A DNA stretch of 64,000 nucleotides from Bifidobacterium sp. (GTDB taxonomy: Bacteria > Actinomycetota > Actinomycetes > Actinomycetales > Bifidobacteriaceae), in contig NZ_JALCLM010000001.1 in NCBI RefSeq assembly GCF_022647885.1, positions 868,001 to 932,000 of the forward strand, written 5' to 3'. The notes beneath the pieces are model-generated. The model ran no database searches and was not told the DNA's origin. It was given only the letters and a program-made list of their open reading frames with translations. Of this stretch, positions 3,788 to 62,164 are shown one piece after another. How positions within the stretch are numbered: the first letter of the stretch is position 1; each line of letters starts with the position of its first letter. The position numbers and the translations under genes are program-made.

Positions 3788-3891
3788 CGTTTCTGTAGGG
3801 ATTTCTTTCGATATAGACCGTTTACCATGCCAAAAATGGCGGAATTGCAACAATCGTGATTGCCGTCTTATCGAAAATCCCTACACAATCG
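3788..3891 (+). repeat. Family A element, copy 1
   Basis: The 104-bp element starts CGTTTCTGTAGGGATTT and ends AAATCCCTACACAATCG. Its core AAAAATGGCGGAATT begins 44 nt after the left end. The inverted arms extend inwards through TCGATA/TATCGA. The element ends 18 bases before the truA start, which makes the longer truA reading frame (from 3856) unlikely because it would begin inside the repeat. Both ends carry one deviation from the family consensus. Confidence 0.8.
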
Positions 3892-3909
3892 AATACGGGG
3901 TATGAAAGA

Positions 3910-4929
3910 ATGGTTGATGTGCTTCGATTACGAATAGATTGCGCATATGATGGCTCGGAATTCCACGGATGGGCCTGTCAACCGCATTTGCGCACAGTCC
4001 AGGGTGTGATGGAGAACTGTTTGTGCCGCATATTGCATCTAGACACAGAGCATCCGCCGATTCGTCTCGTTGTCGCTGGTCGAACTGATACAGGAGTTCA
4101 CGCCAGTCATCAAAGCTGTCACCTGGACGTACAAGAGGAATTGCTGGAACGAGCGGTCGGTCATATGTCGCTTTCCCCAGTAGCCGCACTTGAACATAGA
4201 CTCCGACACATTCTTCCCCCAGATATCGCCATTCACCGCATATCAGTGGCCCCTTCAGGTTTCGACGCCCGCTTTTCCGCTCTTGAGCGAGTGTACGTAT
4301 ATCGTGTCAGTGATTCTTCCACGATTTATGATCCACGAATTCGCAACTGTGTAACTCGAGTGGAAGGGCATCTCAATATAGAAGCGATGAACGCTGCGAT
4401 GTCCAATTGCATCGGCTTACATGACTTTGGTTCTTTTGCTACACCAAATGAGGGTGGCACCACAATACGTGAAGTCAAATCGGTCCGTTGGAGCAGATTA
4501 TCAAATACTCATCCAGGCGAAAACTCCGTTGGAGTTCACCATCATGCCTCCATAGACGGCGCGAGTGAAATGTCTGGCGCAGTTACTGGCACCGACCAGA
4601 GCATCAACACTCAGCCCACTGATGAATCTTTCTCGCTTGAAAGTGGTCGACTAATTATTATGCGCATCGTTGCAGACGCCTTCGCACGGAGTATGGTGCG
4701 CTCCCTAGTAAATGCTTCTATACAGATCGGGCTTGGCAAGCGTGACGAGGCATGGTTTATCAACAAATTGCATCACCCTTTGCGAGAAGGTTCTACGGGA
4801 CCAGCAGATGCTTCCGGTCTGACCTTGGAACACATTGCTTACCCAGCGGATGAATTACTAGCAGCACGAGCAGAACATATTCGTGCTAAACGAGCGTTAC
4901 CAGATAACTACGGCGAAGCTCATTCGTAA
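3910..4929 (+). CDS. truA: tRNA pseudouridine(38-40) synthase TruA
   Basis: TruA makes pseudouridine at positions 38-40 of the tRNA anticodon stem. The protein shows IDCAYDGSEFHGWA near the start and the catalytic Asp motif AGRTDTGVHA around residue 58. The RIVADAFARSMVRSLV helix marks the C-terminal half. At 339 residues it is longer than E. coli TruA (270) because of a Ser/Gly/His-rich insertion of about 50 residues between roughly residues 196 and 245. The start at 3910 is chosen because it gives the conserved N-terminus and avoids the repeat just upstream. The position after rplQ is the usual one, but the terminator and repeat suggest separate transcription. Confidence 0.93.
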   Translation: MVDVLRLRIDCAYDGSEFHGWACQPHLRTVQGVMENCLCRILHLDTEHPPIRLVVAGRTDTGVHASHQSCHLDVQEELLERAVGHMSLSPVAALEHRLRHILPPDIAIHRISVAPSGFDARFSALERVYVYRVSDSSTIYDPRIRNCVTRVEGHLNIEAMNAAMSNCIGLHDFGSFATPNEGGTTIREVKSVRWSRLSNTHPGENSVGVHHHASIDGASEMSGAVTGTDQSINTQPTDESFSLESGRLIIMRIVADAFARSMVRSLVNASIQIGLGKRDEAWFINKLHHPLREGSTGPADASGLTLEHIAYPADELLAARAEHIRAKRALPDNYGEAHS

Positions 4930-5100
4930 CACCGCCAGATAGCATCGGTAACGAAAAGCGCATACTCTTAGGCTTAATCAATTCACCCGATTCGGTGCAA
5001 GAAAGTATCGTATCCCTTGTGTTGTTGCTATTGGTGTACAAACGATAGCAATGCACAGCTGCTTCGATACTCGCTAATCGGCGAAGAAATGGAGCAGATC

Positions 5101-7281
5101 ATGCTTGAGTCCATTGCGCAAAATCTCGCTAGAGAATTGGTTGGACGGCGGGAGTCCATTAATCGTGAACTGGGTAGAAACGGGGTGCGATTCGGCATCT
5201 ACGACAATGGTCAATACGAAGATCGACTCTTTCCTTATGATCCGATTCCTCGCATCATCGAATCCTCGGAATTTACACAGTTAGAAGCAGGGCTCAAACA
5301 GCGCGTTGACGCATTGAATGCATGCTTAAGGGATATCTACTCAGATAAAAACATCATCAAAGATGGCGTAATTCCGGAAGAATACGTGTACACCTCGGTA
5401 GGCTACTTCCCACAAGTAAATGGTGTGACTCCTCCTGGTGGAGTGTTCGCCCATATTGCCGGTGAGGATTTAGTGCAAGGAGAGGACGGACAGTGGTGGG
5501 TGCTTGAAGATAATTTACGCATCCCATCAGGGGCCAGCTATCCACTCTTCGTGAGAGACATTGAGCGACGAATTTATCCGACCTTATTCCGCGATGTCCG
5601 CATCAGGGATAATCGGGCCTATCCACGTTTACTGCGGAAATCAATGGATTTCGTATCGACCGAAGGTATCGCGGTAATACTGACACCAGGTCGTCAAAAC
5701 TCAGCATTTTTTGAGCACTCATATTTGGCAGAAAAAACCGGTGCAGCGCTCGCATTTCCAGAGGACCTTGAAGTCGTTGATAATCGCGTATATTTCGTCG
5801 ATTACGCCGGAAACAGACATCGTGTTGGTGTGATTTATCGCAGACTAGCCGATGAATACTTGGATCCATTCAGCTTCAACCCTGATTCAGTTATTGGTAT
5901 CCCAGGTCTGCTGGCGGCATATCGCTCGGGGAATGTAGCAATCATGAACGCCCCTGGAAATGGTGCGGTTGATGATAAAGCGATGTACTACTTTGTACCG
6001 AAGATGATTGAATACTATCTTCACGAAAAGCCTATCTTGCAGAATGCACCCACCTATATGCCGATGTTTGAGCAGGATTTGCATACCGTGCTCGATCGTT
6101 TGGGAGAACTGGTGATCAAAGATGTGGCGGAGGCCGGAGGATATGGTGTGGTCTTTGGCTCGAGCCTTGGTTCGAAAGAGCGAAGTGAATTGGCTGACCG
6201 TATACAGCGCGAACCTCGCAGGTTCATAGCGCAGGAGGTTATTCAATTCAAAGACATCGACATCGTTGACCCGAAAAACGGGTTACTGACCCCTCGTAAA
6301 GCTGACTTACGCGCGTTTGTGTTGACTGGTCAAAAGACGCATGTTTGGTATTCCGGTTTGACCAGATACTCGTCAACACCAGGAGAAATGATTGTTAATT
6401 CCTCGCAAGGCGGCGGATTCAAAGACACTTGGGTGCTTTCTCCTAAAGAATCTTCAGAGCACGCTGAACAAGTTGAACGTGATGCAGTGAAATTATTGGG
6501 AGATTCGTTCAGACGAACTCCGGCCTTAGTGACCGCCGCGAAAGCAGATAACTTGTATTGGTTGGGAAGATACTCCGAACGTGTGTATACCACTATCAGG
6601 CAGTTCTTTCCTTTCTACGATTTAGTAATGGACACGCAAGTTGAGGCTTTCCGACCATTTGCTCATGCACTTGATTTGCCTGATGATTTCACTGATTTTG
6701 ATGCTTTCATACATTCATTCCTCTATGACGATAGCAACCCTGACTCGGTACGTAGCTCAGTACAAAGTGCGTTTAATAACGTTGTGGTGTTGCGGCCAGA
6801 ATTAGGTTCCAATCTGGTGCAATACATTGAATTGGCAGTCAAATCTATAACTGATGCTGCAGAGGGGGATCTTAAATCAGAGAACATTTATCGTCAGCGC
6901 GATATCACTGACAACATGCTCTGCTTGTGGGGCGGCATTGAGGATTCTGCTTTAGACCCTGTGCTCAAAGGATTTTTGTTTATTGGTAAGTACCTAGAAC
7001 GCATCGATTTATTTACACGTTTTGGACTGCCAGCGGAACAATTGAACCCAGCGTTAAAAAAGCTTTCGGTATATGCCGCCACGTTGGACGCTATGCCTTT
7101 GCCACAGTGCTTGGCATCAGGGGCAAAGCTGTTGTTGCAACAGCTGCCAGCAAGAGGTTATGAGAGTTTGGCTGTTCGAATTCAGGAATTCCTGAATGAG
7201 TTCCAAGGGCGTGTGCTCGACCTTGATTCTGGCAGAAATAGTGTCCTGAATGCCATGAATATGGATGCTCGACGCCCATAA
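5101..7281 (+). CDS. Circularly permuted ATP-grasp / alpha-E domain fusion protein
   Basis: The first 460 or so residues match the circularly permuted ATP-grasp family, including DPIPRII near residue 45 and VLEDNLRIPSGASY near residue 130. From about residue 480 the sequence ADNLYWLGRYSERV opens an alpha-E (DUF403) helical domain that runs to the end. In many bacteria these are two adjacent genes next to a transglutaminase-like gene; here they are one 726-residue protein followed by such a gene. The group has been proposed on comparative grounds to make or modify a peptide or amide-linked compound, but no substrate is known to me. ATG at 5101 is preferred because GGAG lies 6 bases ahead; upstream in-frame starts at 5089 and 5017 are possible. 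Confidence 0.85.
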   Translation: MLESIAQNLARELVGRRESINRELGRNGVRFGIYDNGQYEDRLFPYDPIPRIIESSEFTQLEAGLKQRVDALNACLRDIYSDKNIIKDGVIPEEYVYTSVGYFPQVNGVTPPGGVFAHIAGEDLVQGEDGQWWVLEDNLRIPSGASYPLFVRDIERRIYPTLFRDVRIRDNRAYPRLLRKSMDFVSTEGIAVILTPGRQNSAFFEHSYLAEKTGAALAFPEDLEVVDNRVYFVDYAGNRHRVGVIYRRLADEYLDPFSFNPDSVIGIPGLLAAYRSGNVAIMNAPGNGAVDDKAMYYFVPKMIEYYLHEKPILQNAPTYMPMFEQDLHTVLDRLGELVIKDVAEAGGYGVVFGSSLGSKERSELADRIQREPRRFIAQEVIQFKDIDIVDPKNGLLTPRKADLRAFVLTGQKTHVWYSGLTRYSSTPGEMIVNSSQGGGFKDTWVLSPKESSEHAEQVERDAVKLLGDSFRRTPALVTAAKADNLYWLGRYSERVYTTIRQFFPFYDLVMDTQVEAFRPFAHALDLPDDFTDFDAFIHSFLYDDSNPDSVRSSVQSAFNNVVVLRPELGSNLVQYIELAVKSITDAAEGDLKSENIYRQRDITDNMLCLWGGIEDSALDPVLKGFLFIGKYLERIDLFTRFGLPAEQLNPALKKLSVYAATLDAMPLPQCLASGAKLLLQQLPARGYESLAVRIQEFLNEFQGRVLDLDSGRNSVLNAMNMDARRP

Positions 7282-7306
7282 ATGGGTGTTTGCGCGTTGA
7301 GTTTTA

Positions 7307-7421
7307 CGTTTGTGTAGGGATTTGTACGGAGTCTAGCAGTAGGGTGTTCTGAGAATGGCAGAATTGCAGTCTTCTCGTTTACCTTATACTTGGCATCTGA
7401 TTCAAAATCCCTACACAAACG
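7307..7421 (+). repeat. Family A element, copy 2
   Basis: A 115-bp copy with perfect 17-base ends (CGTTTGTGTAGGGATTT and its complement, apart from one inner base). The core GAGAATGGCAGAATT begins 44 nt from the left end. It separates the ATP-grasp/alpha-E gene from the transglutaminase gene. Confidence 0.85.
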
Positions 7422-7586
7422 TGAGGCTTACGGCTGATGGCATACCAGAGGGGTAAGTTATCCGATAAAAGAGCTATCATTTGTCGGCTAGAGTTGGGTA
7501 AGTCACAAGCGGGCGGTGCTGCAAAGGAATTTTCACCACAATTGGTGTTAGTTGCAAACAGCCGGTAATTGGGAAACAGAGGGACT

Positions 7587-8387
7587 GTGAAGAAACTGGT
7601 TTTTGACTACGCGATGAAGCTGAGTTTCAGTGCACCAGTAACGGATCATCGTTTTCAGTTGCGCTGCGTACCAGCATCTGGGCCGCGTCAGCAGGTTGTG
7701 GATATTAAAGTCAGTGTTGCACCCGAAACAGCATTAGAAACTCAGAATGATGCTTTTGATTCTGTGGTGATGACAGGTTTAATTCCTGAGCCGCACGATT
7801 CATTTGAGTATTCAGTAAAAGGCATTGCCTTCGTTGACAATGACCATACGAAACCCGAGGACTTCAAGCCTCTGTACCGTTTTGATTCCGCGCTCACTAT
7901 CCCTGGTGCGTCACTCAAATCACTAATTGCCCATTGTAAGACAGAAATCGCTGAGTCACAGGGTGAACTATCAGTGATAGATCAAGCAAGTTTGGTGATG
8001 CAGCACGTATTTGAAGCATTTACGTATACTCCTGGAATAACTACCATTCGCACAACTGCCGAAGAAGCATTGACTTTAGGAAAAGGTGTATGTCAGGATT
8101 ACGCGCACACTATGTTGTCGGTGTGCCGACATCTTGGACTACCGTCGAGATATATCGCTGGTTTGCTCGGGGGAGAGGGCGCGACCCATGCGTGGGTAGA
8201 AGTGTATGACCAAGATCGTTGGGTTGGTCTTGATCCTACTCATAATCGTTTGGTCAACGATGAATACATCACTATCGCGCATGGACGTGATTACCGTGAT
8301 TGCATGCTCGATATTGGTATTTTTTCTGGAGCTAATGTGACTCAAGAGCAGTGGGTTAATGCTTCGGTACACGAACAGCGTGCTTGA
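7587..8387 (+). CDS. Transglutaminase-like cysteine protease-fold protein
   Basis: The 266-residue protein has an N-terminal beta-rich region and a transglutaminase core. The catalytic triad is visible as Cys169 in GKGVCQDYAH, His201 in THAWVEVY and Asp216 in GLDPTHN. No signal peptide is evident, so it is probably cytoplasmic. Members next to ATP-grasp and alpha-E genes are thought to act as amidases or peptidases in the same unknown pathway. The GTG start at 7587 is chosen over an in-frame TTG at 7569 because GAGGGA lies just upstream and the MKKLVFDYAMKL-like opening matches the family. Confidence 0.88.
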   Translation: MKKLVFDYAMKLSFSAPVTDHRFQLRCVPASGPRQQVVDIKVSVAPETALETQNDAFDSVVMTGLIPEPHDSFEYSVKGIAFVDNDHTKPEDFKPLYRFDSALTIPGASLKSLIAHCKTEIAESQGELSVIDQASLVMQHVFEAFTYTPGITTIRTTAEEALTLGKGVCQDYAHTMLSVCRHLGLPSRYIAGLLGGEGATHAWVEVYDQDRWVGLDPTHNRLVNDEYITIAHGRDYRDCMLDIGIFSGANVTQEQWVNASVHEQRA

Positions 8388-8666
8388 ACTTGAAGTGCGA
8401 AAGCGTGCACGCTGATTCAGTAATCTTGGCATCCCGAGTGTTGCGTGCGATATTGCACAGTTTCATCTATTGATTTGCAGGGTTGATTTATACAGTTGAT
8501 CTATACGGTTGATTTACGTACTTGAGCTACACAGTGATCTCAACAGTTCAATGGTGTCTAAGTTCTGTGGCATAATAGACAAGTTGCTTTGATGCAGATG
8601 CTGTATTACCTAGCAGAGATTACCCATTAATCTCAGCCTAAGTGAACTGCTGCAGCAGGCGATAAT

Positions 8667-8752
8667 GGTTGAGTGTCCGAGCGGTCTAAGGAGCACGCCT
8701 CGAAAGCGTGTGAGGGTAACACCCTCCGAGAGTTCGAATCTCTCCTCAACCG
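8667..8752 (+). tRNA. tRNA-Ser, anticodon CGA
   Basis: The acceptor stem GGTTGAG/CTCAACC, a long variable arm and the T arm GTTCGAATC are visible; the anticodon loop reads CTCGAAA, giving CGA. The discriminator base is G, as expected for serine. The CCA end is not encoded. Confidence 0.95.
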
Positions 8753-8757
8753 CATAT

Positions 8758-8786
8758 AAGGCTTCGAGCTCACGCTCGGAGCCTTT
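8758..8786 (+). terminator. Terminator of tRNA-Ser(CGA)
   Basis: AAGGCTTCGAGC pairs with GCTCGGAGCCTT (one G-T pair) around a 4-nt loop and is followed by a short T run. Confidence 0.8.
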
Positions 8787-9119
8787 CTCATTTCCCCTTC
8801 TCGCACCTCGCTACAAACAACACGTCTCATCTTGCGCAACGACTATCTCTGGAACTGTGCATATGAGCACGCGACGACGTATCGATTGGCAGCTTACCGT
8901 GCTCTTTCGCACAGTTTCAACTAATCACGTGCCCAGCGCACACTTGCAGCGCACGGTTACAGGGGCACGATTTTTGGCTAAAACGCTGTGATAAGGTGTG
9001 TATTGAGAGCTTCCCAAAGGTGTTCCACACCCTGGAACAAGTTGAGTAATCAACAACCGTTGGATGCCAAGGCTACCGGCTGCATGCACGGTAGCCTTTT
9101 CTATAACGAATGGGATGTC
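8787..9119 (+). other. Intergenic region with three successive hairpins ahead of the Abi gene
   Basis: No convincing coding frame was found here. The last 100 bases hold a hairpin at 9021-9039 (TGTTCCA/TGGAACA), a small one at 9041-9054 and a terminator-like stem at 9069-9098 (AAGGCTACCG/CGGTAGCCTT) followed by TT. They end 20 bases before the likely Abi start, so they may form a small RNA or an attenuated leader. Confidence 0.45.
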
Positions 9120-10103
9120 ATGATGGACAACGGCGTAACTGATGCACCCGCGCAGGCTAGTGATACCAACCCTGATACCAACCCTGCTGCGAATTCCTCT
9201 CAAACTCACGGTCAGCACCATGCGTTGAAGCCGCCATTTTCTCTTTCGATGCAACGTGAGCAGTTAGCTGCTCATAACATCGGTTTTGATGGTTATTCAT
9301 CGCATGATGTTGAGCAGATTCTCTCACGTATCAACTATTACCGGATAACCGGTTACAGCTTGCAATACAGAGCTCAGCACGATACTGCATGGTGTGCAGA
9401 CGGCACACAGTTCTGCGACATTATGACGATCTACCACTTTGATGAGGAACTGCGATTCTTATTGCTGCGGTATTCGGAAGCAGTTGAGGTAAAGCTTCGA
9501 GCAGTGATATCTCATGTATTTACTGCAGCGCACTGTATGCAGAGCCCTCACAATCAGCACACCAAAGCTGAATATTATTATCGAAAACGGGATGCGCTTT
9601 CCATAATTGAAGCGTATTCGTTCGAGGGTGAGCAAGATCAGAGCACTCCTTGGTCACATAAACACAGTAGCTATAGGCAGACGGCCCCTCTGTGGGTGAT
9701 GGTTGAAACGATGCCGTTTTCTAGGCTGGTGCGATACTACCAATGTTTGAAGCGTCAGGACAGGCAAGCTGTAGCGAAACAATTCAACAGTACTGCTGAT
9801 AACTTGCAGAATGCGCTCTTGTGCATTGTGCGACTCCGTAATAAAAGCGCACACGGCAATCGAATTTATAACACGGTAAATCTTAGAAAAGCCAGGCTGG
9901 TGCGTACTGAGGCTAAGCGCAAGGTAGATGCACAATCTGTTTTCGCATATCTGATGATGTTGTGCTGTCATCAGCCGACGCTGCATCAACGCAAACAATT
10001 TGCGCTGGATTTTTGGGAGCTGCTCGGACGATATGATCCGCAAATTGTGCGTCACGACTTACTCGGTATCCCCAACACCGGAGCAGACAGGCTTCTCCGA
10101 TAG
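9120..10103 (+). CDS. Abi family protein (AbiD/AbiF-like)
   Basis: The protein matches the Abi_2 family: a KPPFSLSMQREQL opening, then ILSRINYYRITGYSLQY, then IYHFDEELRFLLLRYSEAVEVKLRAVISH, and a late RLRNKSAHGNRIYN segment. The RxxxxH-type motif near the end (RNKSAH) resembles the HEPN RNase motif seen in this family. Related AbiD/AbiF proteins abort phage infection in lactococci; a defence role here is inferred only. The ATG at 9120 (or 9123) is chosen because the frame upstream crosses a terminator-like hairpin, giving 327 residues. It stands alone, with no partner gene beside it. Confidence 0.8.
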   Translation: MMDNGVTDAPAQASDTNPDTNPAANSSQTHGQHHALKPPFSLSMQREQLAAHNIGFDGYSSHDVEQILSRINYYRITGYSLQYRAQHDTAWCADGTQFCDIMTIYHFDEELRFLLLRYSEAVEVKLRAVISHVFTAAHCMQSPHNQHTKAEYYYRKRDALSIIEAYSFEGEQDQSTPWSHKHSSYRQTAPLWVMVETMPFSRLVRYYQCLKRQDRQAVAKQFNSTADNLQNALLCIVRLRNKSAHGNRIYNTVNLRKARLVRTEAKRKVDAQSVFAYLMMLCCHQPTLHQRKQFALDFWELLGRYDPQIVRHDLLGIPNTGADRLLR

Positions 10104-10121
10104 TCCAACAATGGCTATAAA

Positions 10122-10196
10122 GAGATAACTGCAATAAAAGTGGAGCAAACCCACGTATTTTTCTGCAATTTGCTCCACTTTTATTGCAGTTATCTC
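10122..10196. repeat. Family B hairpin, copy 2; likely bidirectional terminator
   Basis: Arms 10122-10149 and 10169-10196 pair perfectly over 28 bp with a 19-nt loop. The outer sequence GAGATAACTGCAATAAAAG resembles the copies at 47195 and 51682. It lies between the convergent stops of the Abi gene (10103) and the lipoprotein gene (10209). Confidence 0.85.
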
Positions 10197-10208
10197 AAAA
10201 TAACCCGA

Positions 10209-11192
10209 CTATTTGGTAGTTTCGGTGAGAACTGCAGCGTCGAAGGCCGGAAATCCGAGGGCAAATGCGGTGCTGGCTCGCGAAGCTACAATTCTTGCGG
10301 CAACAGTAAGAGCTTGGATGTTCTCAGCCGTGCTGCGATTATTAGTTTGAGTGTCACTCGAGTCGGAATCCGTGCTACTGGAAGAGCTGGCGCTGCTGTC
10401 AGCATTCTTGTCCTCAGTGTTTGCTGAGCTAGTCACGTCTTCACTCGAACTCATTGCCTCAATAACGGCTCTAGCAGTATCCATCTCAATCTGTCCGGTA
10501 GTGGTGGTGTTTAGGCCGGTTGCGGAGTCAGTGACGGTGTCTGGATGAGCAAGCAGTTGCTGCACAGAATAGATTTTTTCACGCGGATCATTGGCTTCTG
10601 GATGTAGTGATACGAGTGACTGGGCAAGGCTTTTGTGATTATCGCTTAATGCGAGCAAATCTGCAGAAGCACCACTACGCGCAGCTAACACCTCTATACC
10701 AAATCCTGCGCGATCCTCGGCAAGAGCAATAGCGGATGCTTCAGTGGTGGAGAGTTTACTCGTAGCGATTTCTGAAGAAGGAAGCACAGCGAGAGCATCA
10801 GACAAGGCCGTGCTTCCCTCGATTTGACTGAGTTGATATGTAGCGAGTGCACTATTGAGAGAGCCTTGCGCAAAGCGACCAGTGCAATTAGCAGCCACAT
10901 CAATCCAATGCTGCTGTGCTGAACGACTCGCCTGTGCACGCTGAACTGTGCTGATAGCCGAGTCAAAGTTCTTTTGGTCCTGCTGAGCACCCTGATAGGC
11001 TGCTTCGCATGGACTGAGCTCAGTTTCCTGTTCGGCGCGTCCTTCGAGACGCGGAGAACTAATTCCTGCAGGGCTGCATGACGAGGCGAGCAATACCACA
11101 AGTCCCACAATCCCAGCAACCAAGCCGCGAGTAACCCGATTATAATTAGGGGTGGCTGCTGCGAGCTGAATGGGGTCTGGTACTGTCTGCAT
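10209..11192 (-). CDS. Putative lipoprotein, function unknown
   Basis: The 327-residue product has a short cytoplasmic N-terminus, a hydrophobic stretch (VAGIVGLVVLLAS) and a lipobox-like LASSC with the cysteine near residue 40, so it is probably an outer-face lipoprotein. The mature part is helical and Ala/Ser-rich, with a low-complexity Ser/Asp/Thr region near residues 255-285. I recognise no domain. It is divergent from nusA, in the place where many actinobacteria carry rimP and related genes. Related proteins at this locus would support a conserved envelope role, but that is not shown here. Confidence 0.65.
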   Translation of the reverse strand: MQTVPDPIQLAAATPNYNRVTRGLVAGIVGLVVLLASSCSPAGISSPRLEGRAEQETELSPCEAAYQGAQQDQKNFDSAISTVQRAQASRSAQQHWIDVAANCTGRFAQGSLNSALATYQLSQIEGSTALSDALAVLPSSEIATSKLSTTEASAIALAEDRAGFGIEVLAARSGASADLLALSDNHKSLAQSLVSLHPEANDPREKIYSVQQLLAHPDTVTDSATGLNTTTTGQIEMDTARAVIEAMSSSEDVTSSANTEDKNADSSASSSSSTDSDSSDTQTNNRSTAENIQALTVAARIVASRASTAFALGFPAFDAAVLTETTK

Positions 11193-11270
11193 GAATCGTT
11201 AGAGTAGTATCCGACGCAGACCATGCCGGTAGGGAATTCGGCACTTAATAACTTCATAGGAGGTCTTGAA

Positions 11271-12341: not shown

Positions 12342-12545
12342 CGCACATCCATAGACACGAGTATGCTTGAGACTCGGAATCCAAGCTTCGATTAACTATG
12401 CCTGGAATACCAACCAGCATAAGAGCCGAAGCAAGGCAAAGAGACGAGGTAACACGACCATGGTCGCACGATGAGACAGGATATGTTCGCCGTCACCGAA
12501 GAATGACTACGCCTACAATGCGCGTGGTCTGGATAGGAGAAATTG

Positions 12546-15446: not shown

Positions 15447-15470
15447 CCGGAAACGGTAAACTGCCCGCAA

Positions 15471-15504
15471 ATGCCCTCCGTGAACACTTACCGGAGGGCA
15501 TTTT
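15471..15504 (+). terminator. Hairpin after infB
   Basis: ATGCCCTCCG (15471-15480) pairs perfectly with CGGAGGGCAT (15492-15501), followed by TTT. It may only partly end transcription, because rbfA lies downstream in the same direction. Confidence 0.7.
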
Positions 15505-15538
15505 CACGCCTGATATGCCCATAATTGCGGTTGCTACA

Positions 15539-15652
15539 CGCTTGTGTAGGGATTGGTGAGTAGACACCGCGATGATGAAATGAAAAACGTTGAAATTTCG
15601 GGGATTTATTATGACACTCGTATGAGTCTCAATGAAAATCCCTACACAAACG
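15539..15652 (+). repeat. Family A element, copy 3
   Basis: A 114-bp copy starting CGCTTGTGTAGGGATT and ending AATCCCTACACAAACG. The core is the most divergent of the six (AAAAACGTTGAAATT) but still begins 44 nt from the left end. It lies between infB and rbfA, within what is normally one transcription unit. Confidence 0.75.
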
Positions 15653-15719
15653 GAGCTGAACGCGCTGACGACGTCTGAATATGGATACAATGGCGGTCAG
15701 CTAATGAAGGATGGAACTT

Positions 15720-21451: not shown

Positions 21452-21577
21452 CGTTTGTGTAGGGATCCGAAAGTATAACGAGCTTTTGTCGGATGCGAAA
21501 ATGGCAGAATTCCGCGCTTCTTATGTCTCGCTCTGAGTCTGATACATCCGGTCTTCCCAAAAATCCCTACACAAACG
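21452..21577 (+). repeat. Family A element, copy 4
   Basis: The longest copy at 126 bp, with perfect CGTTTGTGTAGGGAT/ATCCCTACACAAACG ends. Its core GAAAATGGCAGAATT begins 45 nt from the left end. It lies between the convergent bS22 and rpiA genes. Confidence 0.87.
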
Positions 21578-27229: not shown

Positions 27230-27451
27230 AATAACTATTGTGATATCGCATCTCACTGTGCAGTCAGTAACACAGTAAATTTGAACCAATCCTGCACGAT
27301 TTGCCGAAAAGATTCCGAGTTATGTTCGGAATTCATCGAATGTGTTGAGAAGAATGGTGATATTGATATTCTGTGCACCCATTTACGGGATATTTTTGAA
27401 GGAACAGGCCCTGTATTGAAGCAATTTTGGCGGTGTCGATGTGCAGATTCC

Positions 27452-27565
27452 AGTTGTGTAGGGATTTTATGGCTAAGGGCAAGTATCCAATTATGGCAAA
27501 GACTGAAATACCGCCATTTCTTGTTACTTGATTTAGGACTCTTCTGATAAATCCCTACACAAACG
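27452..27565 (-). repeat. Family A element, copy 5 (reverse orientation)
   Basis: Read on the minus strand this 114-bp copy starts CGTTTGTGTAGGGATTT and has the core AGAAATGGCGGTATT 44 nt in, so it is inverted relative to the other five. The opposite end (CAGTTGTGTAGGG on the plus strand) is less well kept. It lies in the divergent gap between the lipid kinase and serS. Confidence 0.82.
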
Positions 27566-47191: not shown

Positions 47192-47194
47192 CTA

Positions 47195-47267
47195 CGATAA
47201 CTGCGATAAAAGTGGAGATAATATCGAGAAATTGTGCCAATTATCTCCACTTTTATCGCAGTTATCG
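47195..47267. repeat. Family B hairpin, copy 3; likely bidirectional terminator
   Basis: Arms 47195-47222 and 47240-47267 pair perfectly over 28 bp with a 17-nt loop, including CGATAACTGCGATAAAAG. The loop sequence is nearly the same as in the copy at 51682. It sits between the convergent HAD and response regulator stops. Confidence 0.88.
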
Positions 47268-51009: not shown

Positions 51010-51084
51010 TTTGCCTGCTCAGTACGTGAAGCAGTGATTCAGAACGATAATCAACAATAGAACTTTCACACTTAGGAATGACTC

Positions 51085-51654: not shown

Positions 51655-51681
51655 TAATGTCTGTGCTGCAGATGCAACAGT

Positions 51682-51752
51682 GATAACTGCGATAATAGTG
51701 GAGATAATTTCGAGAAATTGTATCAATTATCTCCACAATTATCGCAGTTATC
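51682..51752. repeat. Family B hairpin, copy 4; likely bidirectional terminator
   Basis: Arms 51682-51708 and 51726-51752 pair over 27 bp with one internal mismatch and a 17-nt loop that resembles the loop of copy 3. It lies between two convergent genes (stops at 51654 and 51772). Confidence 0.85.
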
Positions 51753-51771
51753 TATGGAGTATGTCGTTGGT

Positions 51772-53391: not shown

Positions 53392-53469
53392 AGCAAACAC
53401 CCGTTCACTCTACTCCCACCCTTGAAGTCTTCTAGTGTGGGAGGTGAATTAGCACATGATAGATAAATG

Positions 53470-54141: not shown

Positions 54142-54283
54142 TCATACATCCTTCACTTGCTGTGAACCGCGTGAGATAATATTTCTGCTATTTTCTGCTA
54201 TTTGACTATTGCTGTGCTTGGAGTGCTTTGAGGTGCTCCTGCTTGGTTTGGATTGTTGCCTTGTTGATGCTTCGAATGCGACC

Positions 54284-56302
54284 TTAGACACTATGAAGAC
54301 AGGGGTCGTCGCTACTGATATGTGCTTCAACATAGGGTCTTTGCCATTCAAGAAAGCTTTCGGCATTGTTGATCAGGCCTTGCTCATGGAGCTCAGCAAC
54401 AATTGCCATACAAATGTCTTCAATCGAAGCATTCACTCTAGTTACAGCAGGGCGGGCGCCCTGATCACCCTCAGCGGTGCCGCGACCGCCAAAGCAGGCA
54501 GCTGAGGCAATGCGAAGTATTGATTCGAGTTCAGCTACAATCTGGGGGAGTCTTGATGCCATTCTTTTACTTAATCGCCGCAGCGCTGCGAAGGACCATT
54601 TGTAGTACGGCAAATACCCTGAAGTGATGGGTGTGTTGATAAGAAATACGAGAGATGAAACGGCCGTTACGAATTCGTTAATGCATAACCATGCTGCGGA
54701 GCTGTCACCTCTGGAAATCATACGAGGGAAGTTGTATTGACCAGACTGCGCTATCATGCCTAAGCGTCGAGAAATTAGCGAAAGTCGCACATCCTCGGGC
54801 ATCATTTTGAAACCTTGTCGGGTGCGTGAAAATGCCCCATAAGGGTCGGCAAATATCTCACCATTGGTAGCAGCAGCGAGCGTCGCTTCATCGAGCATGA
54901 GCCATGCTGAATGTTCGTGTTGTTCAGGTGCTTCGGGGTATCCGGTTATTGAGGTAAAGAATTCGCCAATGTCGAATACTCCTACCCTGTGCGAATCCCC
55001 TTGCGCACGAATGGTTGATTTGCGGGGCCCGAATCCCATGAATTCTTGTTCGAGAGCATCGTAATCCTGTTGCAGCTGGTCTCCGATTACTTGAAAATCT
55101 TCCGAGGTGAGCCAGAGACAAAACCCTGGGCCAAAATCATGGTCGTGTGAGTACTGATCGTCGAAGCCATAGCACTCTGATCCGTGCCCGACCAACCCCA
55201 CTGCAATGCGATCGACATAGTCGTGGTAGCGCTCTGACAACATAGCTTTGCCATATTGCTCCCAGTAAGCGCGGGAGAGTTGCAAACCTGAAATGTTGTC
55301 AGGTGACTGAGTATGTGCGTGAACAGTGTTACTGGTTTGTTCATCGCTAGGGGCGTGATGTGCTCTGAAATCAGTCTCAGTATGGGGATTTACTGTTGCT
55401 GGTGAGCTTGGCACGTTTAGCGTGGCGGTTGAAGCTAGCGTTGATTGAGCAACTTCAAGATTGTGCGTGGTGCTTCGGTAATATTCGGTATCCTTTCCAT
55501 AATGTAATTCAATAACTGCAAGGGCGTGCGTGTAAGCATCTATGGCCTCGCTCAGATGGCCGGTCTGGAAGAGAACCTGCGCAAAGCCAGCTAGAGCTGC
55601 CGCATAGTGTGCACGTTCTTCTAGCTTGCCCTGATGATAGATATTCATTGCTTCACGCGCATGGTGGAGTGCTTCGTGATTGCCGCCAGAGATATTCAGG
55701 AGCAGTAAAGCAAGATTGGTATGAGTTGAAGCAACATCAATATCTTCCTCAGGATTGGTACTAGAGCGTTCAAGTATGTTCAGTGCCTCAAGAAGATGAT
55801 GTTCAGCTTCCTTGTAGCGTTGAGTTGACGAGTAAAGCATAGAGAGATTGTTATGCAATGCCGCTAGACGGCGATCATTGCTATTCAACAAGCTTTTTGA
55901 CGCTTCAAGCGCTTGCTGATAGAGCTTCTCTGATTCTTGGAACTCTCCCGCCGCTCTCAAACTGGTTGCAGCATTGATAAGCGTGGTGAGCCATGCCTCG
56001 GTGCCAACAATACCCATGCGTTCAGCAAGAGCTAAAGATTCATGAACAATAATCGTATTATCGTCATGTCTACCTTGCGAGCGTAAAAAGCCCATAAGCT
56101 CATTGAGTACGGTCAACTCTGATGCAGCATCATGGGTGGATCTGGCTTGATGCAGTGTTTTGATCATAAAAGCTTCTGCTTGAGTAGGTGCAGCGTTGGC
56201 AGCAAATATGGCATCTAATCCTGCGAAGAACGCATCAATGTCGACACTACTGCTGTTGTGCTGATCAGTGCTGCTATTAGTGCGTGCACTGTAATGATCC
56301 AT
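54284..56302 (-). CDS. TPR and DUF4037 nucleotidyltransferase-like protein
   Basis: The 672-residue protein has helical tetratricopeptide-like repeats from about residue 90 to 290, then a DUF4037 domain whose VGLVGHGSECYGFDDQYSHDHDFG segment looks like a nucleotidyltransferase GS...DxD signature. A large C-terminal part follows. The start MDHYSARTNSS at 56302 is preferred to the first Met of the frame (56344). The substrate is not known; nucleotidyl transfer to RNA, a protein or a small molecule are all possible. It probably acts with the DUF4125 protein. Confidence 0.78.
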   Translation of the reverse strand: MDHYSARTNSSTDQHNSSSVDIDAFFAGLDAIFAANAAPTQAEAFMIKTLHQARSTHDAASELTVLNELMGFLRSQGRHDDNTIIVHESLALAERMGIVGTEAWLTTLINAATSLRAAGEFQESEKLYQQALEASKSLLNSNDRRLAALHNNLSMLYSSTQRYKEAEHHLLEALNILERSSTNPEEDIDVASTHTNLALLLLNISGGNHEALHHAREAMNIYHQGKLEERAHYAAALAGFAQVLFQTGHLSEAIDAYTHALAVIELHYGKDTEYYRSTTHNLEVAQSTLASTATLNVPSSPATVNPHTETDFRAHHAPSDEQTSNTVHAHTQSPDNISGLQLSRAYWEQYGKAMLSERYHDYVDRIAVGLVGHGSECYGFDDQYSHDHDFGPGFCLWLTSEDFQVIGDQLQQDYDALEQEFMGFGPRKSTIRAQGDSHRVGVFDIGEFFTSITGYPEAPEQHEHSAWLMLDEATLAAATNGEIFADPYGAFSRTRQGFKMMPEDVRLSLISRRLGMIAQSGQYNFPRMISRGDSSAAWLCINEFVTAVSSLVFLINTPITSGYLPYYKWSFAALRRLSKRMASRLPQIVAELESILRIASAACFGGRGTAEGDQGARPAVTRVNASIEDICMAIVAELHEQGLINNAESFLEWQRPYVEAHISSDDPCLHSV

Positions 56303-56532
56303 TCTGGGCCCCCTTGCCTGCGAAACCAATCTCAATAAGCTCATGGTTTCACTTCACCAGTGTAGGCGACTCTATATGAGGCTTTCCAATTGCCAGCGTT
56401 GAACGGCAAAGAAAGTTTAGATACAGAGCATCAGAATATGAGATTGTTACCGCCGGATTGTTACCAACAGATTGTTGACACCAGACTGTTGACACTCCAA
56501 ACACATGCGATGAGGCGAGCAGCTATATATAC

Positions 56533-57744
56533 CTAAGCTTTTGGTGAGGAACCTATAGCTTCAGGGTGGATTTCACGCATACGTTGGAGCGCACCTGTAT
56601 GAGTTTCATGACGCCAAGAGTAAATGACGAGCAATACCACCGCGAATATGGCAAAGGGCACACCCGCAAGTGCTGGATAGTGATAATTTGCATCTGCTGA
56701 GAGAGTGATGCCACCAACAAGTGATCCAACAGCATTACCAAGATTGAACGCCACCTGAACGGCAGCGCCGCCGATAAGCTCTCCGCCGCCCTCTCCTGCT
56801 TCAACCATAAGAATTTGTTGCGGTGAAGAGATGAAGAATAATCCAAATGCTACCCAAAAGGTCAATATAGCCGTGCTAATAGGTGTGCCTGGAATCAGAA
56901 AAACCAATAATAGACCAACTGCTGATATTGATTGGCCAAGCGCTGCAGTGCCGGCGTGACGCCATTTGTCTGTAAGAGTTCCACCGCTAAGCCCACCAAT
57001 AACCATGCCGAATCCCGCCAGCATCATCAGTGCAGGTACGACCGTCGCAGCATAGCCACCAACGTGAATAAGCCACGGTGATACGTAACTCCACCAGCAA
57101 AAAATGCCGGTATTACCTACAAATACTGCCCCTAGGATGAACCAAGGACCTCTACGACGAAGGAATTTGAACTGCCCTGCAATGCCTGCATCTTTGATTG
57201 CAGCAACGTCAGGAACCCAAATCGCCACCAGTACAAGGGTTAATACAGCCCAAATACTTAACGCAGCGAAGGTCATTCGCCAGCTCATGTGTTGAGCTAA
57301 GAGTGTGCCAGCGGGAACGCCAACCATATTTGCTACAGTCTGTCCGGTTACCATGAGTGAAACAGCTTTTGCTTCTTTACCTGGATCTGCCACCGATTTA
57401 GCAATTAAGGTTGCTGTACCGAAAAATGCGCCATGGGGTAGTCCAGCAATAAAACGTGCAGCGACCAGCATGGGCGCGTTGAGTGAGAGTGCTGAGAGCA
57501 AGTTGCCAATTACGATAAGCAGCACGAATATCATAATGAGTCGTTTTGGTGGTATCTTGCGACCAAAGACCAGAATTAAGGTACCAAAGCACACACCTAT
57601 GGCATAAGCAGAGATGAAATGGCCGGCTGTCGGTATGCTCACATGCATGGCTGCGGCAGATTGGGGGAGTATCCCCATCATAACGAATTCAGCGGCGCCG
57701 AGTGCGAATGCACCCGCGGCCAGGGCAAGAAGACTCTTCTTCAT
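56533..57744 (-). CDS. MFS transporter of the drug:proton antiporter type
   Basis: The 403-residue protein has about 12 transmembrane helices and starts MKKSLLALAAGAFALGAAEFVMMGILPQSA, which resembles YdhP/AraJ-like DHA1 exporters of sugars or drugs. No local regulator is present. The substrate cannot be told from sequence. It is separated from the DUF4037 gene by 188 bases without a gene. Confidence 0.87.
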   Translation of the reverse strand: MKKSLLALAAGAFALGAAEFVMMGILPQSAAAMHVSIPTAGHFISAYAIGVCFGTLILVFGRKIPPKRLIMIFVLLIVIGNLLSALSLNAPMLVAARFIAGLPHGAFFGTATLIAKSVADPGKEAKAVSLMVTGQTVANMVGVPAGTLLAQHMSWRMTFAALSIWAVLTLVLVAIWVPDVAAIKDAGIAGQFKFLRRRGPWFILGAVFVGNTGIFCWWSYVSPWLIHVGGYAATVVPALMMLAGFGMVIGGLSGGTLTDKWRHAGTAALGQSISAVGLLLVFLIPGTPISTAILTFWVAFGLFFISSPQQILMVEAGEGGGELIGGAAVQVAFNLGNAVGSLVGGITLSADANYHYPALAGVPFAIFAVVLLVIYSWRHETHTGALQRMREIHPEAIGSSPKA

Positions 57745-58139
57745 ATGTGCTTTCTTCAGACACTCATCAGGGCAAGGTAGAAAGCGTTGAAGCAGCCCTC
57801 TATCGCAGATTATTTTACGATTATCCCGTCACAAACTGTTGTCGCTGTGTTGTGGAGAAGCTGGCATTCTGAGCGCTGGTGATATAGCGTATCGATGCTA
57901 TCGCTGGACGTTTGCAGCTCATCATTGCACGCGAGTTCATGTGCAACGATATTTGCTCGTCACCATGCATATGGGTTGATTGTCGAGGGATGTAGCATGC
58001 TGATATATCTTCATTCAGTCGCTGCGGCGTGACCCCTGAATCATCATGGAATCAGTATATAGTAGCGACACTATTAGCGACACCAAGAGTATAGATAAAA
58101 GAAAACCAGAACCGCTGATTTCCAACGATTCCGGTCACT
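57745..58139. other. Intergenic region without a recognised gene
   Basis: Apart from the MFS promoter area, nothing here can be supported. An open frame from 58046 runs into lysS, but it passes through the tRNA-Pro gene and is not real coding sequence. Confidence 0.6.
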
Positions 58140-58216
<77 letters not shown>

Positions 58217-58333
58217 CGATACAACGTGTCAGATGTTACACCGACCCCAGACCAAACGCCAAACAAGGTTGCTAGTGGGGTTAATGCCTCCATTTCCCTG
58301 TGGTGTATCGGCTTCTGCGTACACTGTGGGCTT

Positions 58334-60022
58334 ATGACCGAGTCGAATCAGAATGCATCGCAAAGCCAAGTCTCAGACCATCAAGAGTCAGACAAGAACA
58401 CTGAGGATTCCACCGCACAAACTATGACAACAGTTGAGCGTGCCGAGTTGCTCCTGGATCAGGATGGTGCAATTCAAGAACGTGTGGAACAAGGTTCATC
58501 GCTTGATGAAGCTATTGACCCAAGTAACAAGGAATTCGGTAGCAACGCTCATCCAGAGCAGGTGCAGATGCGTGTGGCAAAACGTGCCATGATGCTCAAG
58601 GAAGGCCTAGAGCCTTATCCAGTACACCTTGATGTCACCACGTCCATCAATGACTTGCGTGCGCAATATGACGGTACGTTGGAAGCCGGCCAGGAGACTG
58701 AAGACGTCGTCGGTATTGCAGGACGAGTGTTGTTCTTGCGTAACGGTGGAGGCCTGTGCTTTGCACAACTTGCAGCAGGTGATGGGGTACGTATTCAGGC
58801 CATGATTTCTAAGCGAGAAGTCGGTGCTGATTCTCTTAAACAATTCAAACAACTGGTTGACCTCGGTGATCATCTATTTGTGCGTGGCAGAGTGATTGCT
58901 TCGAAAACTGGCGAGCTCTCAGTATTCGCCACAGACTGGGCTATTGCTGCAAAAGCTCTACAGCCACTTCCTGCACTACATAAGGAACTCAACGAGGAAC
59001 AACGCACTCGTAAACCATATATCGGCATGATTGCTGATGATCATATTCGTGAGATGGTTCGTCGCCGTTCAGCTACGGTGAGCTCATTGAGAAACACCTT
59101 CGGCGGGCATGATTTTCTCGAAGTTGAAACGCCTATGTTGCAAACAGTTCATGGCGGTGCAGCAGCTCGACCGTTTACCACGCATATGAACGCCTTCGAC
59201 ATTGATTTATTCCTCCGTATCGCTCCTGAATTGTTCTTGAAACGCTGTTTGGTCGGCGGTATCGATCGAGTCTTTGAAATCAATCGTAATTTCCGTAACG
59301 AAGGTGTAGATGCTACACACGCACCGGAATTCACCATGCTCGAGGCTTATCAGGCATATGGCACATACGATACGATCGCGGATTTGGTCAAGGAACTCAT
59401 ACAGCATGCCGCAGTGGATGCATTCGGTTCAACCAAGGTGACGCTGCTGGACGGTACCGAATACGATTTTGGTGGCGAGTGGAAGACCATCACCATGTAT
59501 GGTTCTCTATCCGAGGCGCTGGGGGAGCAGATCACTCCTGAGACCAGTGTTGAGCATTTGCGTGCGATTGCAGACAAGCTCGGGCTTGAACAAGAGGCTG
59601 CTGAAAACCATGGCAAATTAGTTGAGCATCTGTGGGAACACTTCTGGGAAGATAAACTCTACAAGCCCACTTTTGTACGTGATTTCCCCGTTGAGACATC
59701 ACCGTTAGTGAAATCTCATCGCAGTATTCCTGGTGTCGTCGAGAAGTGGGATTTATACGTACGCGGCTTTGAGCTAGCAACAGGTTACTCTGAGCTCAAT
59801 GATCCAGTGGTTCAACGTCAGCGTTTCGTCGAACAGGCCAAGATGGCTTTGGCTGGGGACGTTGAAGCTATGGATATTGATGAGGACTTCCTTGAAGCTT
59901 TGGGTGTCGGTATGCCTCCAGCAGGCGGCATGGGCATGGGCATAGACCGTTTGCTTATTGCATTGACTGGTGCCACGATCCGTGAGACCATCACCTTTCC
60001 ACTAGTTAAACCACTTAATTAG
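58334..60022 (+). CDS. lysS: Lysyl-tRNA synthetase (class II)
   Basis: The 562-residue enzyme charges tRNA-Lys. It has an N-terminal Ser/Gln-rich extension of about 80 residues, an OB-fold anticodon-binding domain and the class II catalytic core, with RRSATVSSLRNTF, the large block around MFRNEGVDATHAPEFTMLEAYQAY and motif 3 GMGMGIDRLLIALTG. The ATG at 58334 lies after tRNA-Pro and has only a weak ribosome binding site, so a slightly later start (for example the next Met near residue 31) is possible. The N-terminal extension is common in actinobacteria. Confidence 0.94.
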   Translation: MTESNQNASQSQVSDHQESDKNTEDSTAQTMTTVERAELLLDQDGAIQERVEQGSSLDEAIDPSNKEFGSNAHPEQVQMRVAKRAMMLKEGLEPYPVHLDVTTSINDLRAQYDGTLEAGQETEDVVGIAGRVLFLRNGGGLCFAQLAAGDGVRIQAMISKREVGADSLKQFKQLVDLGDHLFVRGRVIASKTGELSVFATDWAIAAKALQPLPALHKELNEEQRTRKPYIGMIADDHIREMVRRRSATVSSLRNTFGGHDFLEVETPMLQTVHGGAAARPFTTHMNAFDIDLFLRIAPELFLKRCLVGGIDRVFEINRNFRNEGVDATHAPEFTMLEAYQAYGTYDTIADLVKELIQHAAVDAFGSTKVTLLDGTEYDFGGEWKTITMYGSLSEALGEQITPETSVEHLRAIADKLGLEQEAAENHGKLVEHLWEHFWEDKLYKPTFVRDFPVETSPLVKSHRSIPGVVEKWDLYVRGFELATGYSELNDPVVQRQRFVEQAKMALAGDVEAMDIDEDFLEALGVGMPPAGGMGMGIDRLLIALTGATIRETITFPLVKPLN

Positions 60023-60121
60023 TGCTGAATAGGTGCCAGATAGCTACTGTATTGGTATCGGATTGATGCGATATACACAGCGTTGAGTGGCGGTATGTCA
60101 TAATCGCTACACTCTTCAATT

Positions 60122-61108
60122 ATGGATTGGAAGCTGTGGGTTACAGGGCTACGGCCCAAAACACTGCCAGCTAGTGTCGCCCCCGTATTTGTAGGAGCGG
60201 CATCGGCATGGCATGCGTTACAGCAATCAACAATCTGCCCTGACATCTATCCGGTGCCACAAGCATGTATTACTGCGACGCAACGGTATCAGGCGGCTCA
60301 GGAACGTTTCTCTACCGTACTCATTGCATGCGCATTATTGGCGTTATTCCTACAAGTAGCGGTGAATTTCGCCAACGACTATTCAGACGGCATACGAGGA
60401 ACTGATGCCGCCAGACATGTTGAAGAATCTTACAGTGACAAACCTCAACGTTTAGTAGCTTCTGGTGTAAAACCGTCTCTAGTGCTGACTGCCGCGGCTA
60501 TCAGTGCGATAAGTGCCTGCGTCTTCGGCATGATTGCGGTATTAATTTCGGGTCAATATCTGCTGATTCCGATAGGAGTTCTATGTGTTTTGGCAGGGTG
60601 GTTCTATACCGGTGGCAAACATCCTTACGGATATTCTGGCTTTGGTGAGCTTCTAGTATTTCTATGTTTTGGCGGAGTAGCCACATTAGGTACCCAGTAT
60701 GCCTTAGCTGCTCGTATCGATAGCTTAGGCATTCTCGGAGCTGTATGCACAGGCTTACTCTCTTGCGTGATGCTGATGGTTAATAACCTGCGAGATTTGT
60801 CACAAGACGAAGCGGTAGCTAAACGTACCTTAGCGGTTCGATTAGGGCGTAACCGTGCCACAGTCGCACTGTATGTCGCTGTACTGATTCCTGCGGCAGT
60901 AATGGTCTGTGCGATATTTCTGAGTGTCAGCTCAGACCTAGAGCGACTCTGGCCATTGTCCTTAAGTGCAACATTAGCTCTTGGCTCTATGTGGTCCGTG
61001 GTAAGTACTGTGCATAATCAACAGTTCAAGAGTGCTTTGTCGAGAAGCGGTACAGCCCTGTTATTGTATGCAGTCACTCACATTGTTGCAGTGGTGCTCG
61101 TTGCTTGA
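60122..61108 (+). CDS. UbiA-family prenyltransferase, MenA-like
   Basis: The 328-residue membrane protein shows the two Asp-rich prenyl diphosphate motifs, NFANDYSDGIRGTD near residue 85 and NNLRDLSQDEAVAKRTLAVRLG near residue 220, with eight or so helices. MenA adds a polyprenyl chain to dihydroxynaphthoate in menaquinone synthesis. Other menaquinone genes are not present in this window, so it may use a scavenged precursor or serve another aromatic substrate. The start MDWKLWVTGLRPKTLPASV is typical of the family. Confidence 0.85.
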   Translation: MDWKLWVTGLRPKTLPASVAPVFVGAASAWHALQQSTICPDIYPVPQACITATQRYQAAQERFSTVLIACALLALFLQVAVNFANDYSDGIRGTDAARHVEESYSDKPQRLVASGVKPSLVLTAAAISAISACVFGMIAVLISGQYLLIPIGVLCVLAGWFYTGGKHPYGYSGFGELLVFLCFGGVATLGTQYALAARIDSLGILGAVCTGLLSCVMLMVNNLRDLSQDEAVAKRTLAVRLGRNRATVALYVAVLIPAAVMVCAIFLSVSSDLERLWPLSLSATLALGSMWSVVSTVHNQQFKSALSRSGTALLLYAVTHIVAVVLVA

Positions 61109-61224
61109 TAAGCGACGCAATGCCTATAGTGCCCCTGACCTGCCTGTACGCAGTCTAGGTGTCCCGAATATATGGCCTCAAAGTTAGGTGCTTTCCGGTC
61201 AAAGTGTCCGCATAGAATGCGTGT

Positions 61225-61971
61225 ATGACATACAAACTCATATTGCTCCGGCATGGCCAGAGCGCATGGAATAAAACCAATCAGTTCACCGGCTGGGTTG
61301 ATGTCCCCCTGACCGAGCAAGGTGTCGAAGAAGCCAAGCATGGTGGCGATCTGCTCAAGGAAAAGAATGTCCTTCCTGACATTGTTTTCACATCCTTGCT
61401 GCGTCGCGCTATCAACACAGCGAATCTTGCCCTTGATGAGGCTGACCGCCTGTGGATTCCTGTTAAGCGCAGCTGGCACCTCAACGAGCGTCACTATGGA
61501 GCCTTGCAAGGTAAGAACAAAGCTGAAATTCGCGAGAAGTACGGCGATGAGAAGTTCATGATCTGGCGTCGTTCTTATGGCACTCCACCGCCAGAAATTG
61601 ATCCAAATGATGAATTCTCACAGAATGGCGATCCTCGTTATGCAGGAGAACCAGTTCCTGAGACTGAAGCGCTTGCAAATGTCGTTGAGCGAGTAACGCC
61701 ATACTGGGAAAGCGAAATCATTCCAGAGCTCAAGGCTGGTAAAACAGTCCTCATTGCAGCGCATGGCAACTCCTTGCGCGCCATTGTTAAAATGCTTGAT
61801 GGTTTGAGCGAGGAAGAAATTTCTAAGGTCAACATTCCAACAGCTATTCCACTGCTGTATGAACTTGATGAAAACTTCAAGCCGATTAAGCCTCGTGGTG
61901 AGTACCTCGACCCAGAGGCAGCCGCTGCGGGTGCAGCAGCAGTCGCTGCTCAAGGTCAGCAGAAGAAGTAA
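61225..61971 (+). CDS. gpmA: 2,3-bisphosphoglycerate-dependent phosphoglycerate mutase
   Basis: The enzyme interconverts 3- and 2-phosphoglycerate in lower glycolysis, which the bifid shunt feeds. The 248-residue protein has [10 protein letters not shown] with the catalytic His, the [15 protein letters not shown] segment and [17 protein letters not shown] with the second His. A short Ala/Gln-rich tail ends the protein. A very strong terminator follows 16 bases after the stop. Confidence 0.96.
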
Positions 61972-61987
61972 CTCCGACGGAGACACA

Positions 61988-62039
61988 CACAATGTGCCCT
62001 GTTTTCATGAAATAACTCATGAAAACAGGGCACATTGTG
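61988..62039 (+). terminator. Terminator of gpmA
   Basis: A perfect 23-bp stem (CACAATGTGCCC... with its exact complement) and a 6-nt loop, followed by ATATTTA. It is one of the longest perfect stems in the window. Confidence 0.9.
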
Positions 62040-62059
62040 ATATTTACACAGCTCATTGT

Positions 62060-62164
62060 CGATTGTGTAGGGATTATCAGATAGTCGGTCACTATAAACA
62101 TTGAAAAATCGCCGTATACCAACGCTTACTACTCGCGGTATACGGCGAAATCCCTACACAAACG
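62060..62164 (+). repeat. Family A element, copy 6
   Basis: A 105-bp copy starting CGATTGTGTAGGGATT with core AAAAATCGCCGTATA 44 nt from the left end, and ending ATCCCTACACAAACG. In this copy the core takes part in an inner stem (CGCCGTATACC/GGTATACGGCG) not found in the others. It lies between the convergent gpmA and phoU genes. Confidence 0.75.

Follow-up and report, generated by a model that had tools for sequence, protein, structure and literature searches.

A dispersed family of intergenic elements with paired inverted arms and a central core in Bifidobacterium, a possible DNA-level binding platform

Miniature inverted-repeat transposable elements (MITEs) such as the Correia elements, RUP and ERIC are intergenic units of about 100 bp with terminal inverted repeats, and matS and parS are dispersed chromosome-organising sites, in which a specific site recurs many times and persists through speciation. 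We analysed a stretch of 64,000 nucleotides from Bifidobacterium sp. (contig NZ_JALCLM010000001.1, positions 868,001 to 932,000; the window), which contains six intergenic elements built of two inverted arms, a central core and a filler differing from copy to copy. Our preferred reading, which we place at a probability of about one half, is that each element is a binding platform on double-stranded DNA, spaced by helical turns, for an arm-binding protein, with an insulator or nucleoid structural role as the first choice. None of the open-licence papers listed by the searches described the family: those listed for its sequence words look unrelated by title, and the nearest by topic concerned the REP/REPIN sequences and a motif of Bifidobacterium animalis lactis AD011 (PMC5217627). 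The motif is a single short pair, GGGACAG(N)15TGTCCC, described as uncharacterised and present in 21 copies, 20 of them intergenic and mostly nearer the 3' ends of genes. The pair resembles the GTTGTCCCA words seen in one further genome (G100, L327) and may represent a further arm word of this system.

REPINs and BIMEs with their RAYT (PMC8049555, PMC3733652) are described as short inverted words that flank a diverse spacer, lying between genes and mainly 3' of them, and the elements likewise consist of two inverted words around a diverse spacer. Unlike those sequences, the elements have a non-palindromic arm, length steps of a helical turn, positions fixed between diverged species, outward-facing pairs, a core common across genera and no Y1 transposase in the genomes that carry them. 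The arm consensus CGTTTGTGTAGGGAT is without an internal palindrome and so lacks the REP stem-loop. RAYT/Y1 transposase (PF01797) matches numbered zero in both carriers, the source genome (G000; 2,342,264 bases) and its relative G008, and among 19 genomes only G105 had any (three), which rules against a REPIN/RAYT system. The terminal inverted repeats of MITEs are present, but no target-site duplication was seen, the interiors are unrelated rather than common, the lengths fall in fixed classes and the ends are constrained in place. Like matS and parS, the sites are conserved in place while their surroundings have drifted, but the composite site is far longer, has paired arms and is spread over most of the chromosome.

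The first-pass annotation had described a six-copy family with common inverted ends, and the twelve end words were recovered as six facing pairs, the reversed copy starting at 27451 instead of 27452. With up to three mismatches, the 15-mer CGTTTGTGTAGGGAT matched the window 14 times against 1.23 expected, a count reached in 0 of 100 shuffles, and 12 of the 14 matches were element ends, two for each of the six (0-2 mismatches each). The core AAAATGGCGGAATT was observed with up to two mismatches in four of the six (at 3833, 7352, 21498 and, on the minus strand, 27507), the remaining two having the variants AAAACGTTGAAATT and AAAATCGCCGTATA in the same alignment column. The place of the core given earlier thus stood, its offset being 45 (46 in the copy at 21452) and not 44 or 45, a difference of numbering, and the six interiors proved to be unlike one another, as claimed. 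Degraded copies were absent from the window: facing pairs of the 13-base word with 0-2 mismatches over 26 bases were the six elements, none had 3, 4 or 7, the single pairs at 5 and at 6 were shifted matches within elements 1 and 2, and 9 pairs at 8 mismatches compared with 7.2 per shuffle.

Element 1 (3788..3891) is 104 nt long, in the 104-105 class, with the core AAAATGGCGGAATT at 3833-3846, and element 2 (7307..7421; 115 nt) has a core variant, AGAATGGCAGAATT, at 7352-7365. Element 3 (15539..15652; 114 nt) has AAAACGTTGAAATT at the core position. In element 4 (21452..21577; 126 nt, in the 125-127 class) the core lies at 21498-21511, and in element 5 (27451..27565; 115 nt) at 27507-27520 on the minus strand. 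Element 6 (62060..62164; 105 nt) contains a palindrome and is flanked by two convergent open reading frames (ORFs), one at 61225-61971 (+), which we take to be a phosphoglycerate mutase gene, and phoU at 62181-62852 (-). Elements 2, 4 and 6 have orthologues in G008 (L160, L161 and L123, respectively), that of element 4 likewise of 126 nt. The density of elements in the window is about twice the genome average, with about 100 elements in all.

Across the source genome, exact TAGGGAT-N65-95-ATCCCTA pairs numbered 74 against 1 for the reversed control, and single ends with up to one mismatch numbered 102 + 105 against 2 + 1. The DNA around these end matches contained 99 inward-facing pairs (101 rows less two double counts, L049 at 104 nt and L074 at 133 nt) and three outward-facing pairs (L008, L104, L108). 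A profile built from 31 of the elements and searched on both strands with expectation values (E) up to 10 added at least one more, at 965826-965951. The large dispersed family foreseen in the first-pass annotation therefore exists, at about 100 copies rather than the roughly 220 that six per 64 kb would predict if even. The lengths of the 99 elements fell into four classes, 94 (2), 104-105 (16), 114-116 (73) and 125-127 nt (8), with nothing between them and a step of about 10-11 bp, or approximately one helical turn. Arm positions 4-16 (TTGTGTAGGGATT) were near invariant over 200 arms (100 rows, with L049 counted twice), most filler positions were near random, and weaker base preferences were observed in the continuation of the arms at positions 24/26, 34-36, 46-49 and 51-59. 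The centre is a facing half-site pair of several kinds (ATGGCGGAAT, CGTTGCAAT, GACTGCAAT), and regular palindromy is confined to the ends. Interiors were unrelated among 107 elements, save for a few pairs; these unrelated interiors, together with the orthologous loci in G008, rule out a single recent segmental duplication. By eye, a minority type (L004:1499-1613, L015:1493-1608, L080:1993-2107, L094:1993-2107) carries at the core a perfect or near-perfect palindrome some 34-40 nt long, and such palindromes could be products of quasi-palindrome correction or built-in terminators.

Judged by PhoU, the nearest relative is G008 (97%), followed by G011 (94%). G008 contains at least 53 exact pairs, and 29 of the 49 G008 elements examined matched a source-genome element on both flanks, with flank matches averaging 69.5-87% identity. 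In 26 inward-facing orthologue pairs, positions 4-15 were 97% identical, while positions 20-46 were 36.5% identical as compared with 29.7% (standard deviation [sd] 1.3) for shuffled partners. The length class was retained in 23 of the 26 (with L049 in its 116-nt form) against 12.5 expected, and only 1 of 100,000 shuffles reached 23. The three outward-facing pairs all retained their exact length between the two genomes (131, 131 and 89 nt). Because orthologues keep their ends and length class while the interior has drifted, the ends and their spacing are under selection at old, fixed sites. Orthologous sites have a common ancestral site, and their filler has since drifted almost to randomness around unchanged ends and spacing. 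The earlier proposal of selection on both ends and core is borne out for the ends and supported, less strictly, for the core. Exchange of interiors between loci was rejected, as orthologues score higher on average (-1.9 versus -11.1); the single best cross-species interior match was not between assigned orthologues. The shortest outward pair, L108:1927-2015 (89 nt), lies just before an ORF matching PIF1-like helicases (Pfam, source-genome copy), and its G008 orthologue L186 has equal length and a matching place; this pair is possibly an operator.

The family was absent from G011, where the profile gave no match (119 of 119 candidates scored), and it gave none in G018 (150 of 264 scored) or G015 (150 of 276 scored); G014 yielded five matches, the best with an E of 0.29. 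For 15 of the 99 elements the corresponding gap could be located in a 320-kb sample of G011, and in no case was it occupied. In a blind scan, 335 kb of G011 yielded no word in more than three facing pairs, and the same scan ranks the element family first in the 64-kb window, which rules against a version of the system with different arms in G011. Since about 100 sites are present in one genome, at least 53 exact ones in another and none in a close sister, the protein should be findable by comparison of gene content. Phage and virus contigs had no matches for either the paired or the tandem pattern (described below), and the paired 22-base pattern had none in the named genomes, a set that may omit near genomes.

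Among 121 genomes of the Bifidobacteriaceae, the exact paired word was observed in the two carriers and, twice and overlapping, in G142, where three 19-bp arms, the core AAAATGGCGCAATTCCAAGGTTTT and two inverted arms form an array between two convergent ORFs. The single word GTGTAGGGAT occurred 184 times in the source genome, 133 in G008, 26 in B. myosotis (G174), 24 in B. jacchi (G164) and 23 in B. reuteri (G182), with reversed controls of 1-2. Sixty stretches contained the tandem word, all from these three named species, B. miconisargentati (G170) and B. callitrichidarum (G105), and in all five the variant consists of tandem 19-bp arms around the same core. Inner-arm spacing in 58 cases was 47-48 (38), 57-59 (14) or 66-67 (6). 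Arrays were orthologous among the five species at 8 loci, giving 19 pairs, and a single locus, shared by all five, contributed 10 of these; the number of arms varies, and the core is mostly, not always, recognisable. The profile matched 41 places in G164, 36 in G174, 31 in G182 and 20 in G105 (best E from 3e-5 to 5e-8), and these are presumably the tandem arrays. The phoU gap that houses element 6 also houses arrays in B. reuteri (L269) and B. myosotis (L266). Among 30 genomes of the genus of these two species, the arm word was present in this gap in those two only, and the core with up to one mismatch in four others (exact in G150 only); neither was found in the phoU gap of B. callitrichidarum or B. 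miconisargentati. The phoU gap of B. miconisargentati (L356) contains a different long hairpin repeat, of the CTCCCCTC...GAGGGGAG type, where B. myosotis has its array.

In many genomes of genus g34 the core word AATGGCGGAAT greatly outnumbered its reversed control (e.g. 45 vs 0, 27 vs 0, 19 vs 1, 18 vs 0). Twenty-three places with the core and no arm word, from ten genomes, were picked for having AATGGCGGAAT. At 17 of them an exact inverted repeat of at least 9 nt brackets the core (at six there was none of 9 nt), and at 15 of the 23 no more than 5% of the alternative positions tried within the locus matched or exceeded the bracketing repeat. The bracketing words vary by genome, two kinds being possible within one genome. 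Because different inverted repeats bracket the same core in different genomes, we tentatively consider a site system common to the Bifidobacteriaceae, somewhat less probable to us than its opposite, in which a conserved core (AAAAYGGCGGAATTCCGCCRTTTT-like) would be read by one conserved factor and each lineage-swapped arm word (TGTAGGGAT, GTTGTGGC, TACCGTGGCA, TTCCGTGGTCGG, TTTCAAGGGGCTGA and others) by its own fast-changing DNA-binding protein. If true, the system would exemplify, in bacteria, a rapidly evolving specificity on a scaffold that stays fixed.

A protein-binding site was among the first suggestions made for the window, and it is the reading that we now favour. The facing arms, whole-turn steps, outward pairs at fixed spacing, kept letters and drifting filler together point to a protein complex on double-stranded DNA. 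In the mechanism we propose, subunits of a sequence-specific DNA-binding protein would grip the two inverted 13-16 bp arms (TTTGTGTAGGGATT), and the same putative protein would also contact the central core (half-site approximately AAAAYGGCGGAAT). The arms would need to keep facing around the helix, so that mainly whole-turn changes of length would be tolerated, and the complex would wrap or loop the 94-127 bp between them. The platforms, which lie mostly downstream of genes and often between convergent ones, would be fixed structural sites acting as insulators, nucleoid-organising points or barriers that end converging transcription. The arm-binding specificity would change between lineages (tandem 19-bp arms or other arm words elsewhere) while the core stays. 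With about 100 sites, at least 29 of them held across two species with drifted filler, the family would imply an unrecognised DNA-binding machine in bifidobacteria.

Three of the 99 elements lay inside an ORF of at least 120 codons; the other 96 comprised 42 between convergent, 48 between tandem and 6 between divergent ORFs. The corresponding background, with ORFs called mechanically and gaps drawn from another genome (the G011 sample, n=181), was 43 convergent, 101 tandem and 37 divergent (P 0.0009 for convergent). Thirteen of the 42 elements in convergent gaps had both stop codons no more than 30 bp away. A structural role is preferred because few sites lie between divergent genes and the neighbouring genes are of many kinds. 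The mean spacing was one site per 23 kb, and neighbours less than 3 kb apart were rarer than chance (5 versus 12.3). A role marking a ter or ori domain was rejected, the longest element-free gap being 145.5 kb (P 0.15).

Several observations weigh against the binding platform. No binding protein was found among the Y1 transposase and tyrosine recombinase families or by Pfam on 16 proteins near elements and arrays, which gave no common DNA-binding candidate (an integrase, a response regulator and a PIF1-like helicase appeared once each); tyrosine recombinases were equally many in the carriers and in G011. Spacing along the chromosome was no more even than random (coefficient of variation 1.01 versus 0.99), and the A+T period of the filler was strongest at 8 and not at 10-11 (P 0.047 for 10-11.5), leaving in-phase bending unsupported. 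The arms are stronger than the core, whose type switches between some orthologues, the arrays at the phoU locus differ between related species, and 20 of the 49 G008 elements were without a partner by the two-flank rule, which does not imply absence. Terminator-like hairpins were present in 24 of 35 element-bearing convergent gaps and in 5 of 19 others, the element-bearing gaps being longer. A mobile element would explain equally well why whole units are copied now and again.

A rival reading is a non-autonomous mobile element of MITE or REPIN type: a transposase working on the ends would have spread the copies in trans, and most would later have become immobile. The ends would then be intact because copying continues or because the transposase has been domesticated; we judge this unlikely, though a real contender. 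Near-identical whole units occur at unlinked places with similarity stopping at the ends (L063/L064 in the source genome; L024/L027 and a diverged L033 in G008), as the earlier MITE-like suggestion would have it, and the terminal inverted repeats, intergenic dispersal and patchy species distribution fit too, including phoU arrays in B. myosotis and B. reuteri that B. callitrichidarum and B. miconisargentati lack. However, the proposed check for target-site duplications gave none above expectation: flank matches of 4-9 bp, at boundary shifts of -3 to +4 in the 99 elements, were near chance (highest excess 2 versus 0.5). Many copies are orthologous, and their drifted interiors with kept ends and lengths argue for constraint in place; outward pairs stand at exact spacing in both species, the Y1 family is missing from both carriers, and no long gene-bearing copy with such ends was found in the DNA around the listed end matches, where reverse-strand places were partly listed. 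L063:1993-2107 and L064:1993-2106 lie 9.5 kb apart in opposite direction with nearly the same interior, but G008 has unlike elements at both loci (L168, L169), and the likeness may reflect conversion of one site by the other and not insertion. Because whole units are copied on rare occasions, the family may have had a mobile origin.

If a bound protein blocked transcription and so ended it between convergent genes, the 42 of 96 elements in convergent gaps and the 13 close to both stop codons would be accounted for. We consider such a roadblock improbable, as 48 of the 96 are between tandem ORFs and terminator-like hairpins were commoner, not rarer, in element-bearing convergent gaps (6 of 35 convergent gaps in G011 had them). 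The latter result also speaks against the elements as replacements for terminators, and a hairpin with a U tract inside the element was observed in 25 of 99 as compared with 19 of 99 with shuffled interiors, unlike intrinsic terminators. The inverted or tandem sets of arms, placed about a core whose half-sites are inverted and whose centre is short, recall the arm-type and core-type sites of a heterobivalent tyrosine recombinase, but such a recombination site seems very improbable given stable orthologous loci and equal numbers of tyrosine recombinase matches in G000, G008, G011 and G015 (5 each; 9 in G018). Still more doubtful, to the point of being nearly dismissed, is a structured RNA, one of the earlier suggestions, here taken as closed by the end stem: the ends are complementary, some copies have perfect internal palindromes, and the palindrome at the phoU locus is kept with changed letters in its orthologue, but changes in the ends were mostly one-sided. 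Changes on both sides were seen in 5 cells versus 6.3 (sd 2.0) in shuffles of the 31 elements, 415 of 500 shuffles being as high, and because end-stem changes are uncompensated, it is letters and not pairing that are kept. Outward pairs would not form the stem in the same way, and Rfam gathering scores returned only two tRNAs in the window.

A second repeat family was also observed in the window, as 69-nt near-perfect hairpins at 207-275, 10125-10193, 47197-47265 and 51683-51751. In the DNA sampled there were five copies in the source genome (four of them in the window), five in G008 (one of 68 nt) and none in 335 kb of G011. The hairpins have constant ends (ATAACTGC/GCAGTTAT) and inner stems that have changed yet are still complementary.

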